A stretch of 30,921 nt of DNA from a virus, in the IMG/VR virus record IMGVR_UViG_3300020185_000170, positions 1 to 30,921 of that record. One strand, written 5' to 3'. The notes under the pieces are model-generated. The model was given only the letters and a program-made list of their open reading frames with translations, had not been told where the DNA came from and ran no database searches. Of the stretch, positions 22,266 to 30,921 are shown piece by piece; within the stretch, counting starts at the first letter, position 1, and every line of letters starts with the position of its first letter. Made by a program: the position numbers and the translations under genes.

Positions 22266-22473
22266 CATTATCCTTTGTTAGGTCAAAACAGTCTATATAG
22301 TTTGCAACATCCGTGCCAACTTCTGATCGTAAATCTTCACGGGTCAAAACCTTGACATCTTCGTCGATGGTTGACAAGCATTTTTCGCAAATGTCAATGA
22401 AATCATTAGTACTCACTTTTCTGGTAGTACTCTCAAATGGTGATAGTATTACATTACAGCAATTACATCTCAT
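22258..22473 (-). CDS. Small zinc-ribbon-like protein
   Basis: 71 residues from ATG 22473, with GGGAG six bases upstream. Two cysteine pairs, CNCC near residues 3-6 and CEKC (about 29-32), could bind one zinc ion, followed by an acidic helical tail (TREDLRSEVGTDVANYID). Zinc-ribbon micro-proteins often bind nucleic acid or RNA polymerase; this one could be an early regulator, but that is inference. The gene contains a CTATATAG octamer (22293-22300). Its start overlaps the stop of the 18-residue micro-ORF as ATGA. Confidence 0.75.
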   Translation of the reverse strand: MRCNCCNVILSPFESTTRKVSTNDFIDICEKCLSTIDEDVKVLTREDLRSEVGTDVANYIDCFDLTKDNDE

Positions 22474-23078: not shown

Positions 23079-23144
23079 CTAGTTTAGATAATGTGAGAGT
23101 GACAGAATAACCCCTAAAGCAAGCGCTAAAAACCAATTACTCAT
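23079..23144 (-). CDS. 21-residue hydrophobic micropeptide
   Basis: From ATG 23144 to TAG 23081-23079, preceded by AGGGGG with spacing near six. It begins MSNWFLALALGVILSLS and ends HYLN, a single membrane segment with a polar cap at each end. Its start lies eight bases inside the upstream SH3-barrel gene and its stop forms the TAGGGG binding site of the next gene. It follows the same gene-spacing rule as its larger neighbours, which is the reason for calling it coding. Confidence 0.52.
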   Translation of the reverse strand: MSNWFLALALGVILSLSHYLN

Positions 23145-23382
23145 GAGTTACCCCCTCGCACGTTACCGATTGGATTGTGGAGCGGTTTACAGCCCTGTAG
23201 CCGCTGTTTTGCACGTCGTAGATGGTAACGTATAGGTCAGGGTTTAAAGTGCTTACACCGCCTTTTAAATGCTTGGTAACGCCTAGTCGCCCCGTGAGAG
23301 TGCGTAAGCTGCCATCTTTTTTGGTGAAGGTAACCGTGATAAATTTGCCACCACTCGATAGTAGTAGTTGGTCTAATTTCAT
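23137..23382 (-). CDS. SH3 beta-barrel fold-containing phage protein
   Basis: 81 residues from ATG 23382, set by GGAG six bases upstream; the longer frame to 23454 would run through hairpin sequence. The core GGKFITVTFTKKDGSLRTLTG ... LGVTKHLKGG, then DLYVTIYDV, GYRAVNRSTIQSV, matches a small phage family annotated as SH3 beta-barrel proteins (recalled, not searched). These are common among early or unassigned genes of enteric and marine phages; the function is unknown, with RNA or protein binding likely. A ~100-base leader with hairpins lies directly upstream. Confidence 0.82.
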   Translation of the reverse strand: MKLDQLLLSSGGKFITVTFTKKDGSLRTLTGRLGVTKHLKGGVSTLNPDLYVTIYDVQNSGYRAVNRSTIQSVTCEGVTHE

Positions 23383-23485
23383 GTATAGCTCCGATAACCT
23401 AGGAAAAGCCCTAGGCAAGTGGCACAAAAGGTCAGGAATACTAATAGATAACACTATTAGGAAAAGCGACCTTTATGCCCTATGC
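23383..23485 (-). promoter_or_regulatory. Structured leader between two early genes
   Basis: This 103-base gap holds two inverted-repeat structures. CCTAGG (23398-23403) pairs with CCTAGG (23410-23415) around a six-base loop. AAAGGTC (23427-23433) pairs with GACCTTT (23468-23474), enclosing CTAATAG (23441-23447) and CTATTAG (23454-23460). No open frame with a binding site is seen. On the minus transcript the hairpins precede the SH3-barrel gene, so they may control its translation, stabilise the RNA or mark a processing site. Confidence 0.55.
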
Positions 23486-24665: not shown

Positions 24666-25526
24666 TTAGTGTACTGCGATCACAATCGGCAAACCCTTAA
24701 GCGCTTGCATGCCGCATGCGTGACCTTTCCCGGTGCAAGTACCGCAAGCGCCCGGGCATGGAAAAGCTTTTGCCCCGAATGATTCCCGCAAAGCTTGGTT
24801 AACCGCCCGTGTCCCATGTTCGCTACTCTTGACGCGCCGCCCGATAGACACCGCGATAAAATCACCGCGCGTAATCGGCAAAGCTTTTACCCGTGCAATG
24901 GTGTCCGCGTCGCTATTGTGTCCACTGCTAACGTTCAAAACGTAATTGCTTGGTAACGCGCCCTTATACGCTAACAATTCATTGAAGCTTTTAGAATAAC
25001 CATAAACACGGGCGTTCGTGCCGTCGATAAGGTCGAACCAAAATTCTACGTCATTAGTACTTGAAAAGTCACCATCGACATATAAGCGCAAGTCGTAGGG
25101 GCTTTTCGCCTTGTTATCTATAGCGCGGAAAGCTTGCACAATAGCGCCTTGGTTAAACCGCATGAGGAAAGCATTCTGGCATTGACGGGCGAACGCAGCC
25201 GGATAACGCCAAGCGCGGAAGCTATAACAGAAATCAAGACAAGCGCCCGCGCCGGGGCATGTAACGCCGGGTAACGAACTAAAAGCCACGAATGGAAGCT
25301 TAGAGTTACCGTCAAGCTTAAACACCGTAAACGCGGGTTCGTCGTTTAACATTACGCCCAATAGCTTACCTAGGTTAACTCTCCACCCGATAGACGCGAA
25401 CGCGGGCGAAGCTATCAATTCGACTAGTTCATCTATGATTTCCTCACGCGTGCCATTTTGAACTACTTGCGCGAACGTGTATAGCTTGGCGGTTTTGGTT
25501 GCTGTCTTAGAGAATGTCTTTTGCAT
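24666..25526 (-). CDS. GP88-family cysteine-rich phage protein
   Basis: 286 residues from ATG 25526, with AAGGGG about six bases before it; a longer frame to 25559 lacks a site. Cys90, Cys96 and Cys100 occur in TCPGAGACLDFCYS, followed by RAWRYPAAFARQ; a second cluster near the C-terminus is CPGACGTCTGKGHAC. Between them RLYVDGDFSSTNDVEFW and YGYSKSF suggest an alpha/beta barrel-like core. The pattern matches the phage 'gene product 88' (GP88) family, of unknown function. The clusters could bind zinc or an iron-sulfur cluster. It is the first gene of the early operon, about 30 bases from the promoter. Confidence 0.8.
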   Translation of the reverse strand: MQKTFSKTATKTAKLYTFAQVVQNGTREEIIDELVELIASPAFASIGWRVNLGKLLGVMLNDEPAFTVFKLDGNSKLPFVAFSSLPGVTCPGAGACLDFCYSFRAWRYPAAFARQCQNAFLMRFNQGAIVQAFRAIDNKAKSPYDLRLYVDGDFSSTNDVEFWFDLIDGTNARVYGYSKSFNELLAYKGALPSNYVLNVSSGHNSDADTIARVKALPITRGDFIAVSIGRRVKSSEHGTRAVNQALRESFGAKAFPCPGACGTCTGKGHACGMQALKGLPIVIAVH

Positions 25527-25558
25527 GGTTAACCCCTTGGTTGGTTGTTGATGTGTCA

Positions 25559-25586
25559 ATGATAACGCAGTTTTCTACGCTGTCAA
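25559..25586 (-). promoter_or_regulatory. Early leftward promoter of the minus-strand operon
   Basis: On the minus strand: TTGACA (25586-25581), a 16-base spacer and TATCAT (25564-25559). The start of the GP88-family gene lies about 30 bases downstream. It is the only clear promoter at the head of the ~16-kb leftward operon. It lacks the GTGTGG spacer block of the other promoters, which suggests separate timing or strength. Confidence 0.75.
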
Positions 25587-25707
25587 TACTTTTGTTGATT
25601 GTATGTTTTAATCGGCTGCTTATCTTGATAGTCTTTTGCTATAGGTTGTCTGGTCTGTCTGTTTAACTGTATAGCCACCAGCACAGCCCCTCACACATGA
25701 CTATATA

Positions 25708-25753
25708 GTAACATAGTTACATAACTATATGCTTATATTGGTAACAAAGTTAC
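25708..25753. repeat. Paired operator-like palindromes GTAAC-N3-GTTAC
   Basis: Two 13-base palindromes, GTAAC-ATA-GTTAC (25708-25720) and GTAAC-AAA-GTTAC (25741-25753), each followed by ATA. Their starts are 33 bases apart, about three helical turns, so a bound regulator would face the same side of the DNA. They lie upstream of the leftward early promoter. Confidence 0.65.
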
Positions 25754-25957
25754 ATAGCCATTACTGTTGCATATCTACAACAACACCCCCGGGGAGGGCT
25801 TGGCCTGCGTTGTATATTTGTAGTACCTGCCCAGATACAAAATAGGGGTAAATTAGAAAACAATACCTATATAGCTAACAAGCATAACTGCTTAATTTTT
25901 AAGCACTTTTGACTGAACAGCTAACAGGAGAGAGTTAACAAGAAAAGGAAAGTTAAC

Positions 25958-25988
25958 AGTCGAAGTCGCTAAGGTGACTATTTCGACT
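25958..25988. promoter_or_regulatory. Nested hairpin in the control region
   Basis: Outer arms AGTCGA (25958-25963) and TCGACT (25983-25988) enclose AGTCGC and GTGACT (25964-25979), which pair with one G-T wobble around the TAAG loop. The downstream arm overlaps one copy of the direct repeat GACTGAACAG. There is no T-run, so it is not a standard terminator. Confidence 0.55.
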
Positions 25989-26038
25989 GAACAGTATTTT
26001 TGACCTAAAAAAAAAATAAGAAAAAGTGAAGAAAAGAC

Positions 26039-26067
26039 TTGACAAAATAGCAAAAGTGTGTTATACT
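26039..26067 (+). promoter_or_regulatory. Late promoter for the packaging and lysis genes
   Basis: TTGACA (26039-26044), 17-base spacer ending AAAAGTGTGT, and TATACT (26062-26067) with an extended -10 TG. An A-rich tract directly upstream may act as an UP element. Transcription should start near 26074 and run through small terminase, holin, endolysin, large terminase and portal, with a leader of about 130 bases. Confidence 0.85.
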
Positions 26068-26133
26068 GTGTACTATATAGGGTATGATGTTTCTGGTTAC
26101 TAAATATGGTTAACCACTACCTCATAGTTCATA

Positions 26134-26191
26134 GCTATATAGACTAACTAGCACTAGAAAGTATGTAGTCTATATAGCCTAGTTAGTGCTA
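26134..26191 (+). promoter_or_regulatory. Interleaved inverted repeats in the small terminase leader
   Basis: GCTATATAGACTA (26134-26146) is a perfect 13-base complement of TAGTCTATATAGC (26166-26178). The 19-base loop contains TAGCACTA (26149-26156), complementary to TAGTGCTA (26184-26191) downstream of the hairpin. CTAACTAG (26144-26151) can also pair with CTAGTTAG (26179-26186), excluding the first stem. The GGGGA ribosome binding site starts at 26196. It could be an RNA switch, a protein-binding site or part of a packaging signal. Confidence 0.65.
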
Positions 26192-26207
26192 CATAGGGGA
26201 ACCAGCA

Positions 26208-26567
26208 ATGGACAATCCAAAACAACCAGTTAAGAAGGGTAGACCATCGAAAGATAGGTTAGCCGAAGTTAAGAAAAGACCAGTTGGTAGACCTAAAGGG
26301 GATGCCTCAGCCATCGAGGAATTTAAAGCTCGGTTGATGGCGTCACCTAAATCCCGCAAGGTGTTAGACTCCATCTTAGACGCTGCACTTGACGATGACC
26401 ACAAGAATCAAGCAGCGGCGTGGAAGCTTCTGGTTGACCGTATGTTACCCATGTCATATTTCGATAAGGCCACCTCATCAAACAGTAGACCTTCTGTTAA
26501 CATCACCATCAGTGGCGTTGGTGAGACCATTGTATCAGATGTAATTGATGCTGAGGATATATCATGA
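26208..26567 (+). CDS. terS: Terminase small subunit (putative)
   Basis: 119 residues from ATG 26208, with GGGGA (26196-26200) seven bases upstream. Two AT-hook-like GRP motifs (residues 11-13 and 27-29) sit in a basic N-terminus (KKGRPSKDR, RPVGRPKGD). A helical middle (IEEFKARLMASPKSRKVLDS) and helices near WKLLVDRMLPMSYFDK follow, with an acidic C-terminus (DVIDAEDIS). The role, recognising phage DNA and feeding it to the large subunit, is inferred from size, basic start and position before the lysis genes and large terminase. AT hooks bind AT-rich minor groove, which fits the CTATATAG-rich leader. Its stop overlaps the next start (ATGA). Confidence 0.8.
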   Translation: MDNPKQPVKKGRPSKDRLAEVKKRPVGRPKGDASAIEEFKARLMASPKSRKVLDSILDAALDDDHKNQAAAWKLLVDRMLPMSYFDKATSSNSRPSVNITISGVGETIVSDVIDAEDIS

Positions 26568-28688: not shown

Positions 28689-30677
28689 ATGGATGATGAC
28701 AACAAATTTGCTAACCCAAAGTTAGAAAACTGGGTTATTAACAAAGCCGATGAGTGGCGTGATCACTATCAGGCTAACTACGAACAAAAGTTTGACGAGT
28801 ACTACCGTTTATGGCGTGGTATTTGGGCTGCTGAGGATAAAACTCGTGATTCAGAGCGTTCACGTCTTATTTCCCCTGCCCTACAACAAGCCGTAGAGTC
28901 ATCTGTAGCTGAAGTAGAGGAAGCTACCTTTGGACGTGGTAAGTGGTTTGACATTCGTGATGACCGCAACGACAAAGACCCACAAGATATTGCTTATTTA
29001 CGTGAGCAATTGACAGAAGACTTCCATTTTACCAAGACACGCAAGGCTGTTGCTGAGTGTTTGCTAAACTCTGCTGTTTTTGGCACTGGTATTGGTGAAA
29101 TAGTCATCGAAGAAGTCAAGGAAATGAAGCCAGCTACGCAACCTCTTATGGATGGTGCGATGGAAGCGGTTGGTGTTAACATTGTAGACCGTGTTGTTGT
29201 TAAACTACGCCCTGTTCTACCACAAAACTTTTTAATTGACCCTGTAGCTACTTCTATTGAGGATGCTTTAGGTGTTGTTATCGACGAGTTTGTACCCACA
29301 CACCAAGTTAAGCTAGGTATACAGAACGGTATCTATCGTGATGTTGATATTGAGACCGCAGCTACCGACATTAACTTGGAAGCAGACAAAGAGCTGTCTA
29401 CTTTTGACGAAGATAAGGTACGCCTTACTAAATACTACGGTTTAGTGCCAAAACACTTGTTTAACGAGGCTATGTTAGACGAGGAAGATGATGATGAGAT
29501 GTCTAAGACGCTGACATCTGATGACGATGAAGAAGATGAGGAAGAAGGCTACGTTGAGGCAATCATTGTTATTGCCAACGGCGGTAAACTACTCAAGATT
29601 GAAGAGAACCCCTACATGATGCAGGATCGTCCTGTTGTAGCGTTCCCTTGGGATGTAGTTCCCTCTCGTTTCTGGGGTCGTGGTATCTGTGAGAAGGGCT
29701 ATAACAGCCAGAAGGCGCTTGATGCTGAGCTTCGTGCTCGTATTGATGCCCTAGCCCTTACCGTGCATCCTATGATCGCTATGGACGCTTCTCGTATGCC
29801 TCGTGGGGCTAAGATGGAAGTACGTCCGGGCAAGACTATCCTAACTAACGGCAACCCTGCTGAAATCCTCCAGCCATTTAAGTTTGGTAACCTAGATCAG
29901 GTAACTTTCGCTCAGGCAGGTGAGCTTCAGAAGATGGTGCAGATGGCTACAGGTGCTATTGACGCTGCTGGCATCCCCGGCACTATCAATGGTGACGCTG
30001 CCGCTGGTGCTGTTTCTATGTCTATGGGTGCAATTATCAAGCGCCACAAGCGTACCCTGATTAACTTCCAAGAGTCCTTTCTGATCCCTATGATCGAGAA
30101 GACAGCATGGCGTTACATGCAGTTTGACCCTGATAACTACCCTGTTAGCGATTATAAGTTTGTACCTTCATCATCTCTGGGTGTTATCGCCCGTGAGTAC
30201 GAGGTAACACAACTGGTTCAACTGTTGCAAACCCTTGGTCAAGATAGCCCAATGTACCCAATGCTGGTATCTGCTGTTATTGACAACATGGGTCTGTCTA
30301 ACCGTGAAGAACTCATGGCTCAGTTGCAACAATCTATGCAGCCTAACCCAGAAGCAGAACAACAAGCACAACAGGCGCAACAGCAGCAAATGGAGCAACA
30401 GGCTCAGATGGCTCAGGCTCAACTTGAATTGGTACAGGCTCAAACTATGGAAGCGCAAGCCCGTGCCCAGAAGTATTCAATCGAATCTCAATTGGAGCCA
30501 GAGGTTGTTAAGGCTAAGTTGGCGGCAGCTCTCTCTACTAACCTACAGACAGGTAACGCAGATGAAGCTGAATTTGCCAAACGAGCAAAGATTGCCGATC
30601 TAATGCTTAAAGAGAAAGACATACAAAGCAATGAGCGTATTGCTACTATGCAAATGCAAAGTAAACAAAACGCTTGA
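28689..30677 (+). CDS. Portal protein (P22-like, with Gln-rich C-terminal barrel)
   Basis: 662 residues from ATG 28689, one base after the large terminase stop. The N-terminal part (ERSRLISPALQQAVESSVAEVEEATFG, then DIRDDRND) and the central FPWDVVPSRFWGRGICEKGYNSQ and RPGKTILTNGNPAEIL segments match the head-to-tail portal family. Residues about 260-290 are very acidic (EEDDDEMSK ... DDDEEDEEEG). Residues about 560-610 are a Gln/Ala/Met-rich coiled coil, comparable to the C-terminal barrel of P22 portal. It forms the dodecameric DNA gate and docks the terminase. A promoter starts just before its stop codon. Confidence 0.92.
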   Translation: MDDDNKFANPKLENWVINKADEWRDHYQANYEQKFDEYYRLWRGIWAAEDKTRDSERSRLISPALQQAVESSVAEVEEATFGRGKWFDIRDDRNDKDPQDIAYLREQLTEDFHFTKTRKAVAECLLNSAVFGTGIGEIVIEEVKEMKPATQPLMDGAMEAVGVNIVDRVVVKLRPVLPQNFLIDPVATSIEDALGVVIDEFVPTHQVKLGIQNGIYRDVDIETAATDINLEADKELSTFDEDKVRLTKYYGLVPKHLFNEAMLDEEDDDEMSKTLTSDDDEEDEEEGYVEAIIVIANGGKLLKIEENPYMMQDRPVVAFPWDVVPSRFWGRGICEKGYNSQKALDAELRARIDALALTVHPMIAMDASRMPRGAKMEVRPGKTILTNGNPAEILQPFKFGNLDQVTFAQAGELQKMVQMATGAIDAAGIPGTINGDAAAGAVSMSMGAIIKRHKRTLINFQESFLIPMIEKTAWRYMQFDPDNYPVSDYKFVPSSSLGVIAREYEVTQLVQLLQTLGQDSPMYPMLVSAVIDNMGLSNREELMAQLQQSMQPNPEAEQQAQQAQQQQMEQQAQMAQAQLELVQAQTMEAQARAQKYSIESQLEPEVVKAKLAAALSTNLQTGNADEAEFAKRAKIADLMLKEKDIQSNERIATMQMQSKQNA

Positions 30678-30702
30678 CAAATTGTTAAAAGTGTGGTATA
30701 AT
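30674..30702 (+). promoter_or_regulatory. Consensus sigma70-type promoter after the portal gene
   Basis: TTGACA (30674-30679), 17-base spacer ending AAAAGTGTGG and TATAAT (30697-30702), with extended -10 TG. The last 12 bases from GTGTGG through TATAAT are identical to those of the promoter at 2085. The -35 overlaps the portal stop codon. It should drive the gene at 30738 and the head genes beyond the window. Confidence 0.9.
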
Positions 30703-30737
30703 AGCAACATCTCTCCTAACAAAGAAAGGAAAAAGAG

Positions 30738-30921
30738 ATGGACAAAGAATTACAACAGTATTACGAAACGTTACTAGATTTGTTTTCCTCACAAGGCTGG
30801 AAGCAATATGTAGAAGATATATCCGACAATATGGATTTGCTTCAGGATATTACTACCATCCCAGACGAGAAACAATTCTGGTTCCGCAGAGGACAAATAG
30901 AAGCGTTACAGCGAGTCCTTT
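30738..30921 (+). CDS. Hypothetical protein after the portal (partial, 3' end off window)
   Basis: 61 codons from ATG 30738 run to the window edge. AAGGA (30726-30730) lies seven bases before the start. The visible part begins MDKELQQYYETLLDLFSSQG and continues with acidic helices ending FWFRRGQIEALQRVL. Small proteins of this type ('..LLDLF.T.GW..Y..D.') often lie between the portal and scaffold genes of T7-like marine phages; that comparison is from memory. Function unknown. Confidence 0.75.
   Translation, partial: MDKELQQYYETLLDLFSSQGWKQYVEDISDNMDLLQDITTIPDEKQFWFRRGQIEALQRVL

Follow-up and report, generated by a model that had tools for sequence, protein, structure and literature searches.

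The segment between the late promoter and the first late gene of the phage studied here is, with somewhat better than even probability, a structured late-operon leader RNA laid over DNA operator boxes, as judged from sequence comparison. Its pairing is kept despite changes of the letters and is built on a palindrome that marks the probable transcription start, and the folded leader with this palindrome is therefore probably an undescribed control element. The DNA is IMG/VR virus record IMGVR_UViG_3300020185_000170 (30,921 nt, positions 1 to 30,921; "the window" denotes this whole stretch) and belongs to an uncultured phage group. Leaders of this type were found in about 50 IMG/VR contigs, with about 20 distinct relatives among them. 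They share one layout: promoter, box 1 with a TATGA-like word, GTTCATAG with a second box, further boxes, and AGGAACCAG before the ATG.

Gene context, promoters and palindromic boxes

The late operon comprises terS, a gene for a small membrane-type protein, an endolysin gene, the large terminase gene (terL) and the portal gene, in this order. The name terS was given because of the gene order, as PHROG and Pfam searches with the product gave no match. TerS also had no match among 50,697 phage records or in the bacterial genomes searched; the protein carries two GRP motifs that resemble AT-hooks and are invariant in 14 relatives. The replication genes run in the opposite orientation, from about 25559. 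The cumulative GC skew of the window has its minimum at about 25500, at the divergent intergenic region, where a replication origin is possible, although gene orientation alone would give the same minimum. In eight relatives the contig starts about 510-580 bases upstream of terS (L029, L032, L033, L039, L042, L043, L044 and L049); three of these ends fall at the same homologous word, GCTTCATTGCCCC, and may be an assembly break or a genome end.

Phages without an RNA polymerase of their own must use the host machinery for the timing of their late genes, and to our knowledge this timing is mostly unknown in uncultured marine podoviruses. A phage-type polymerase promoter was considered for CACTATATAGGG and set aside: four records gave no match to an RNA_pol family, and neither did the control genomes. 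The promoter, boxes and gene start of the window are as follows.

26039-26067, plus strand: sigma-70-type promoter, TTGACA-17-TATACT with TG before the -10 (11 of 12 matches); it also precedes the leader in relatives
26073-26080, plus strand: box 1, a copy of CTATATAG that overlaps the start site expected here, in the 5' strand of helix P1
26135-26142, plus strand: box 2, CTATATAG, lying in P1 (3' strand) as well as in the main stem (5' part)
26170-26177, plus strand: box 3, CTATATAG, a copy of the repeated palindrome
26189-26196, plus strand: box 4, CTACATAG, with one mismatch, immediately 5' of the ribosome site
26196-26203, plus strand: ribosome site region GGGGAACC; GGAACC is kept in nearly all relatives
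26208-26567, plus strand: first late gene, called terS by its position ahead of the lysis genes, terL and portal
25867-25874, minus strand: CTATATAG at the putative divergent (early) promoter start; box and upstream minus-strand context are kept in clades I and II
25701-25708, either strand: further intergenic copy of CTATATAG, included in the repeat count

The promoter-like sequence at 26039-26067 predicts a late start site near 26074-26075, and the transcript should therefore start in box 1 (26073-26080), with a predicted leader of ~134 nt from box 1 to the terS ATG at 26208. The self-palindromic word CTATATAG occurs six times in the window, against 0.57 expected, and five of the six copies (at 25701, 25867, 26073, 26135 and 26170) lie within the 650-bp divergent intergenic region (25560-26207). 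The sixth copy, at 22293-22300, lies inside the end of a coding frame and is found in the same place in G001 and G002. On the minus strand, the copy at 25867 is located just behind a -10-like sequence, with clade-specific upstream sequence in clades I and II; since the -35 of this promoter is weak, we infer the early start site rather than assign it. The palindrome is thus enriched at putative promoter start sites, as expected of an operator array. Because the five intergenic copies include both putative divergent start sites, recognition at the DNA level is likely, which supports the protein site in DNA that an earlier sequence-only reading had offered as an alternative to an RNA switch.

Profile matches of the small early proteins show no regulator. 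One of these proteins (23137-23454) has a match to WYL_2 slightly below the curated cut-off and is a possible candidate for that role. The divergent intergenic region also holds a dyad, GTAACATAGTTAC / GTAACAAAGTTAC, in two copies 33 bases apart (25708-25720 and 25741-25753), which looks like a second operator type, and a repeat, TTTTGACTGAACAG / TTTCGACTGAACAG, between the two promoters (25907-25920 and 25981-25994). Another short leader lies directly after the portal gene (30674-30741), behind a perfect sigma-70 promoter, TTGACA-17-TATAAT; its stem, CATCTCT...AGAGATG, includes the start codon, and AAAGGA lies in its loop. This stem recurs in G002, where the loop differs.

Helix P1 and the competing folds

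The 5' part of the leader can form a helix, P1, between 26073-26087 and 26129-26142, which the sequence-only reading had missed together with the promoter and the repeat family. The elements of P1 and of the folds that compete with it in the window are listed here.

26083-26087, plus strand: TATGA, 5' strand of P1, pairing with TCATA at 26129-26133; double change in L030/L034/L041
26129-26142, plus strand: TCATA, G and box 2 (CTATATAG, 26135-26142), forming the 3' strand of P1 and contributing to the main stem on its 5' side; indicated by complementarity, the double change and RNAalifold
26094-26116, plus strand: apical hairpin inside P1, TGGTTA (26094-26099) with TAACCA (26111-26116); its sequence varies in relatives
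26134-26178, plus strand: main 13-bp stem-loop (fold I), kept with changed bases in L008, L010, L011 and L014
26143-26187, plus strand: alternative helix ACTAACTAG (26143-26151) with CTAGTTAGT (26179-26187) (fold II, register 1), at the site of the variable middle stem of other clades
26149-26191, plus strand: alternative helix TAGCACTA with TAGTGCTA (register 2), 13 bp in L010

In P1, 99.4% of cells are paired, compared with 17-54% in slid controls, and RNAalifold, unprompted, returned P1 in clade I; for clade II it chose P1-type pairs. In L030, L034 and L041, TATGA has become TATAA and TTCATA has become TTTATA, which is a double compensatory change from G-C to A-U in arms about 50 nt apart; the support for P1 rests on this one double change, and the three sequences that carry it may reflect a single event. 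P1 alone is no proof of RNA, because the same two words could be two inverted DNA sites. The apical hairpin reached p=0.075 overall in the masked-helix test. The same double change bears on the tiny frame MMFLVTKYG (start 26084), to which the sequence-only reading had drawn attention in the leader. L030, L034 and L041 lack its ATG while P1 stays paired, and the other peptides are unrelated. With neither ATG nor frame conserved, we rejected a leader peptide; since the change that preserves P1 destroys the ATG, it is the pairing that is kept, and not the peptide.

The perfect 13-bp stem at the centre of the sequence-only reading is present, with GCTATATAGACTA (26134-26146) pairing with TAGTCTATATAGC (26166-26178) around a loop of 19. 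The loop is also, as proposed, complementary to a segment before the ribosome site (TAGCACTA, 26149-26156, and TAGTGCTA, 26184-26191, with a 5-base link at 26179-26183), and the second pairing, between CTAACTAG (26144-26151) and CTAGTTAG (26179-26186), overlaps the main stem and excludes it. When the 110 nt preceding terS were dinucleotide-shuffled 200 times, no shuffle yielded a perfect stem of 13 bp. Two copies of CTATATAG make up 8 of the 13 bp, and since CTATATAG is its own reverse complement, so that any two copies pair in RNA, part of the stem symmetry is a by-product of the repeat. With CTATATAG masked, the best helix in the window is ACTAACTAG/CTAGTTAGT (p=0.002), which is the second pairing of the earlier reading.

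Forced folding gave -36.7 kcal/mol for the main stem, -34.2 kcal/mol for CTAACTAG/CTAGTTAG and -35.5 kcal/mol for TAGCACTA/TAGTGCTA, so the computed energies of these competing folds lie within 2.5 kcal/mol; P1 combined with the alternative helices gave -28.8 and -30.3 kcal/mol. The leader can adopt alternative, nearly equal folds because box 2 and the segment following it have more than one partner. The folding stability of the whole leader is not unusual in the window (z -0.8), and z ranges from -5 to -8 in L018, L044, L047, L049 and L053. The CTAACTAG/CTAGTTAG fold occupies the place of the hairpin seen in other clades, with boxes 2 and 4 outside, a middle stem, and the inner boxes. The 13-bp stem, unlike that hairpin, pairs one outer with one inner box.

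In L010 the main stem persists with a bulge and with an A-U pair turned into U-A; the TAGCACTA/TAGTGCTA helix of this leader is extended to 13 perfect bp and is the minimum-energy fold. In L008, L014 and L020 the 3' partner is missing, the helix from loop to 3' flank being absent or weak, and the main stem alone is kept. Bistability of exactly this kind is therefore real for the nearest subclade and not general. Of the two-state leader proposed earlier, the mutually exclusive, nearly isoenergetic folds and the pairing conserved with different arms hold up, but the alternative helix in its exact form occurs only in the nearest subclade; a pseudoknot proper does not agree with the loss of the second helix in those three leaders.

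The hairpin in related leaders

Comparison across relatives, which had been suggested as a check for covariation, showed that pairing is kept with different arm sequences. Among the about 20 distinct relatives, the segment from GTTCATAG to the Shine-Dalgarno sequence nearly always contains a hairpin, with several unrelated arm sequences. The middle-stem arm is TAGAATCTCTTATGTA in L018, ACCACTTGAGCTT in L044, CTTGTAATG(TA) in L036, CTGTTAAGA in L045, CTAGAGTA in L049 and ACATCA in L025; at least six middle-stem sequences are mutually unrelated, and several leaders share a CTTGAG stem. With the boxes masked, the helix excess of this segment in 16 related leaders has a combined p of 7.5e-16, which overstates the evidence because the leaders are related. 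Same-length controls, two upstream segments and one coding, show no excess (0.53, 0.67 and 0.88). Taken singly, the middle stem is short or not significant in L008, L011, L020, L035, L319 and L367. The boxes are invariant while the middle stems vary.

In five clade-II leaders, one-sided changes in the middle stem keep a G-U, A-U or G-C pair on the plus strand, with one exception that re-pairs with a neighbouring base. Counted over all clades, G-U mismatches are roughly as frequent as A-C mismatches, so that a strand preference is not clear, and we discarded this bias as proof of an RNA strand. In L018, L023, L028, L044, L047 and L049, a second copy of the middle stem's 5' arm lies immediately upstream of GTTCATAG, and the two copies change together (CTTGAG, CTAGAG, CTTATGT); because of this duplication the 3' arm has two possible partners. 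The upstream arm copy in clade II has a combined p of 5e-7, likewise overstated since the leaders are related, and a different competition between folds through this copy is possible in that clade.

Distant relatives with TerS about 60% identical have other boxes and comparable nested hairpins before terS, each leader having been folded singly. L440 and L408 have CTTAAGTATACTTAAG on both sides (folding z -5.2 and -4.5), and the palindromic word in the nested hairpin is CTTTAAAG in L386 and CCTATAGG in L393. L413 and L426 likewise have nested hairpins of other palindromic words. The leaders of L387, L411 and L395, folded singly, do not stand out.

Several outputs of the folded leader were considered and set aside. 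The unpaired probability of GGGGAACC differs between folds, but inconsistently across relatives, which argues against masking of the ribosome site. By eye, the anti-Shine-Dalgarno word CCTC (26120-26123) can pair with GGGG in the window, L010, L014 and L035, and not in L020, L025, L045 and L319; pairing of GGTTC with GGAACC is lost in L030, L025 and L045. A transcription attenuator is unlikely because no U run follows the hairpin, and the plus strand has no terminator-like site in 26068-26207. Rfam 15 gave no covariance-model match up to E 1 for 25500-26400 of the window, nor up to E 0.1 for seven relatives. The most plausible remaining roles are in the stability of the late messenger, with P1 tying up its 5' end, and in translation of the first gene.

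Proposed mechanism, rival explanations and known systems

We hypothesize that the late messenger (terS, small membrane protein, endolysin, terL and portal) begins at box 1 and that its leader forms P1 as a 5'-terminal helix, in which box 1 and TATGA would pair with TCATA and box 2. A second hairpin, P2, would form between GTTCATAG and the ribosome site. Box 2 and the following segment would, in the window phage and the relatives closest to it, choose between box 1 (P1), box 3 (the 13-bp stem) and box 4 plus ACTAACTAG/CTAGTTAGT, and these alternative folds may set the stability or the translation of the late messenger. In DNA, the CTATATAG palindromes would be operators for a putative phage regulator at both divergent start sites.

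An operator array in DNA alone would involve a dimeric phage regulator on the CTATATAG boxes at both start sites and downstream, with the RNA hairpin as a by-product and the middle stems kept in step by template-switch correction of quasipalindromes; we regard this as unlikely, though a serious contender. It would account for five exact boxes in 650 bp where 0.57 are expected in the whole window, for the box that each strand carries at its putative start site, with the upstream minus-strand context kept within clades, and for boxes that are invariant while middle stems vary and that occur outside the late leader as well. Homogenisation of quasipalindrome arms by template switching is moreover a known mutational process (PMC7202029, PMC8604942). 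However, the helix excess is confined to the stretch from GTTCATAG to the ribosome site and is not seen in segments further upstream in that intergenic region, the double change in P1 joins arms about 50 nt apart, and the middle-stem variants of five clade-II leaders keep G-U pairs. The boxes, which do not vary at either putative start site, suggest a DNA-binding protein. The middle stems point to RNA: their sequence changes freely, their arms stay complementary, and they are limited to the transcribed stretch ahead of the ribosome site. Because box invariance favours DNA and pairing favours RNA, with template switching also possible, we chose a superposition of the two.

By analogy with put RNAs, two stem-loops at the transcript start could bind RNA polymerase and allow readthrough of terminators in the long late operon. 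This agrees with two consecutive hairpins directly behind a phage sigma-70 promoter, as in putL, and with a search for a T7-type RNA polymerase that gave no match in the window record and three related records, nor in the control genomes. It is nevertheless very unlikely, as the stem sequences are not conserved, whereas put activity needs specific bases (PMC9378689); a terminator excess is absent in the part of the late operon that was read, and the early operon was seen without such a leader. The boxes could alternatively be bound by the small terminase subunit as a packaging initiation site (pac or cos) beside terS. Packaging sites are often located at or beside the small terminase gene, as are lambda cosB, P22 pac and SPP1 pac, TerS has two conserved GRP motifs like AT-hooks, and contigs of several relatives end 510-580 bases upstream of terS. 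Those ends scatter and precede the hairpin by about 350-400 bases, and assembly breaks can account for them; the box sequence differs between lineages with similar TerS, and middle stems of free sequence would not be required in a DNA site, so that we give packaging little credence. Least credible is a true H-type pseudoknot of the 13-bp stem and the TAGCACTA/TAGTGCTA helix. The A-B-A'-B' order is there, both helices are available in the window, L003 and L010, and similar complementarity of loop and flank is seen by eye in L045 and L036, but by the coordinates only 5 bases would have to cross 13 bp, and the second helix is not conserved, being missing or weak in L008, L014 and L020.

We speculate, as a doubtful extension of the preferred reading, that these elements form a new class of late-leader RNA, in which nested hairpins grow from a lineage-specific self-palindromic box (CTATATAG; CTTAAGTATACTTAAG or CTTTAAAG in same-terS relatives), with middle stems of free sequence, a multi-state switch, and one phage factor reading the box in both promoter DNA and messenger. 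If the superposition of leader and operators is right, one palindrome serves as DNA operator and RNA strand in a compact element. Structure probing and reporter assays would then have a defined target of 135 bases, and the late promoter of related metagenomic genomes could be located by its sequence signature.

HK022 putL is about 70 nt long with two stem-loops, and put activity depends on specific bases (PMC9378689). The leader described here resembles the put RNAs in having two stem-loops at the start of an operon transcript, directly behind a sigma-70 promoter (PMC9378689). In contrast to put, the sequence of its arms varies freely, it incorporates palindromic boxes, and the operon is late rather than early. 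Conserved bases of put contact the beta' zinc-binding domain of RNA polymerase; the stem sequences here differ between clades. Put suppresses downstream termination without a protein factor; antitermination by the present leader would be a putative function. Riboswitch expression platforms are bistable leaders and have in common with the window leader one segment with mutually exclusive partners and near-equal energies; here, however, there is neither a conserved aptamer-like core nor an Rfam match, and the computed exposure of the ribosome site does not consistently track the fold. The ompA leader is a 5'-terminal stabilising hairpin, and P1 would similarly sequester the messenger's 5' end in a stem. 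Unlike the ompA hairpin, P1 shares a strand with a second, competing hairpin, and its stabilising role is putative. Operators of the lambda and lac types sit at the start sites of divergent promoters, and in the window, likewise, a short palindrome recurs at the two divergent start sites and in further copies close by. The window differs from them in having a putative regulator and in that the palindromes beyond the late start site form part of an RNA hairpin; outside the boxes, the arms of this hairpin stay complementary although their sequence changes.
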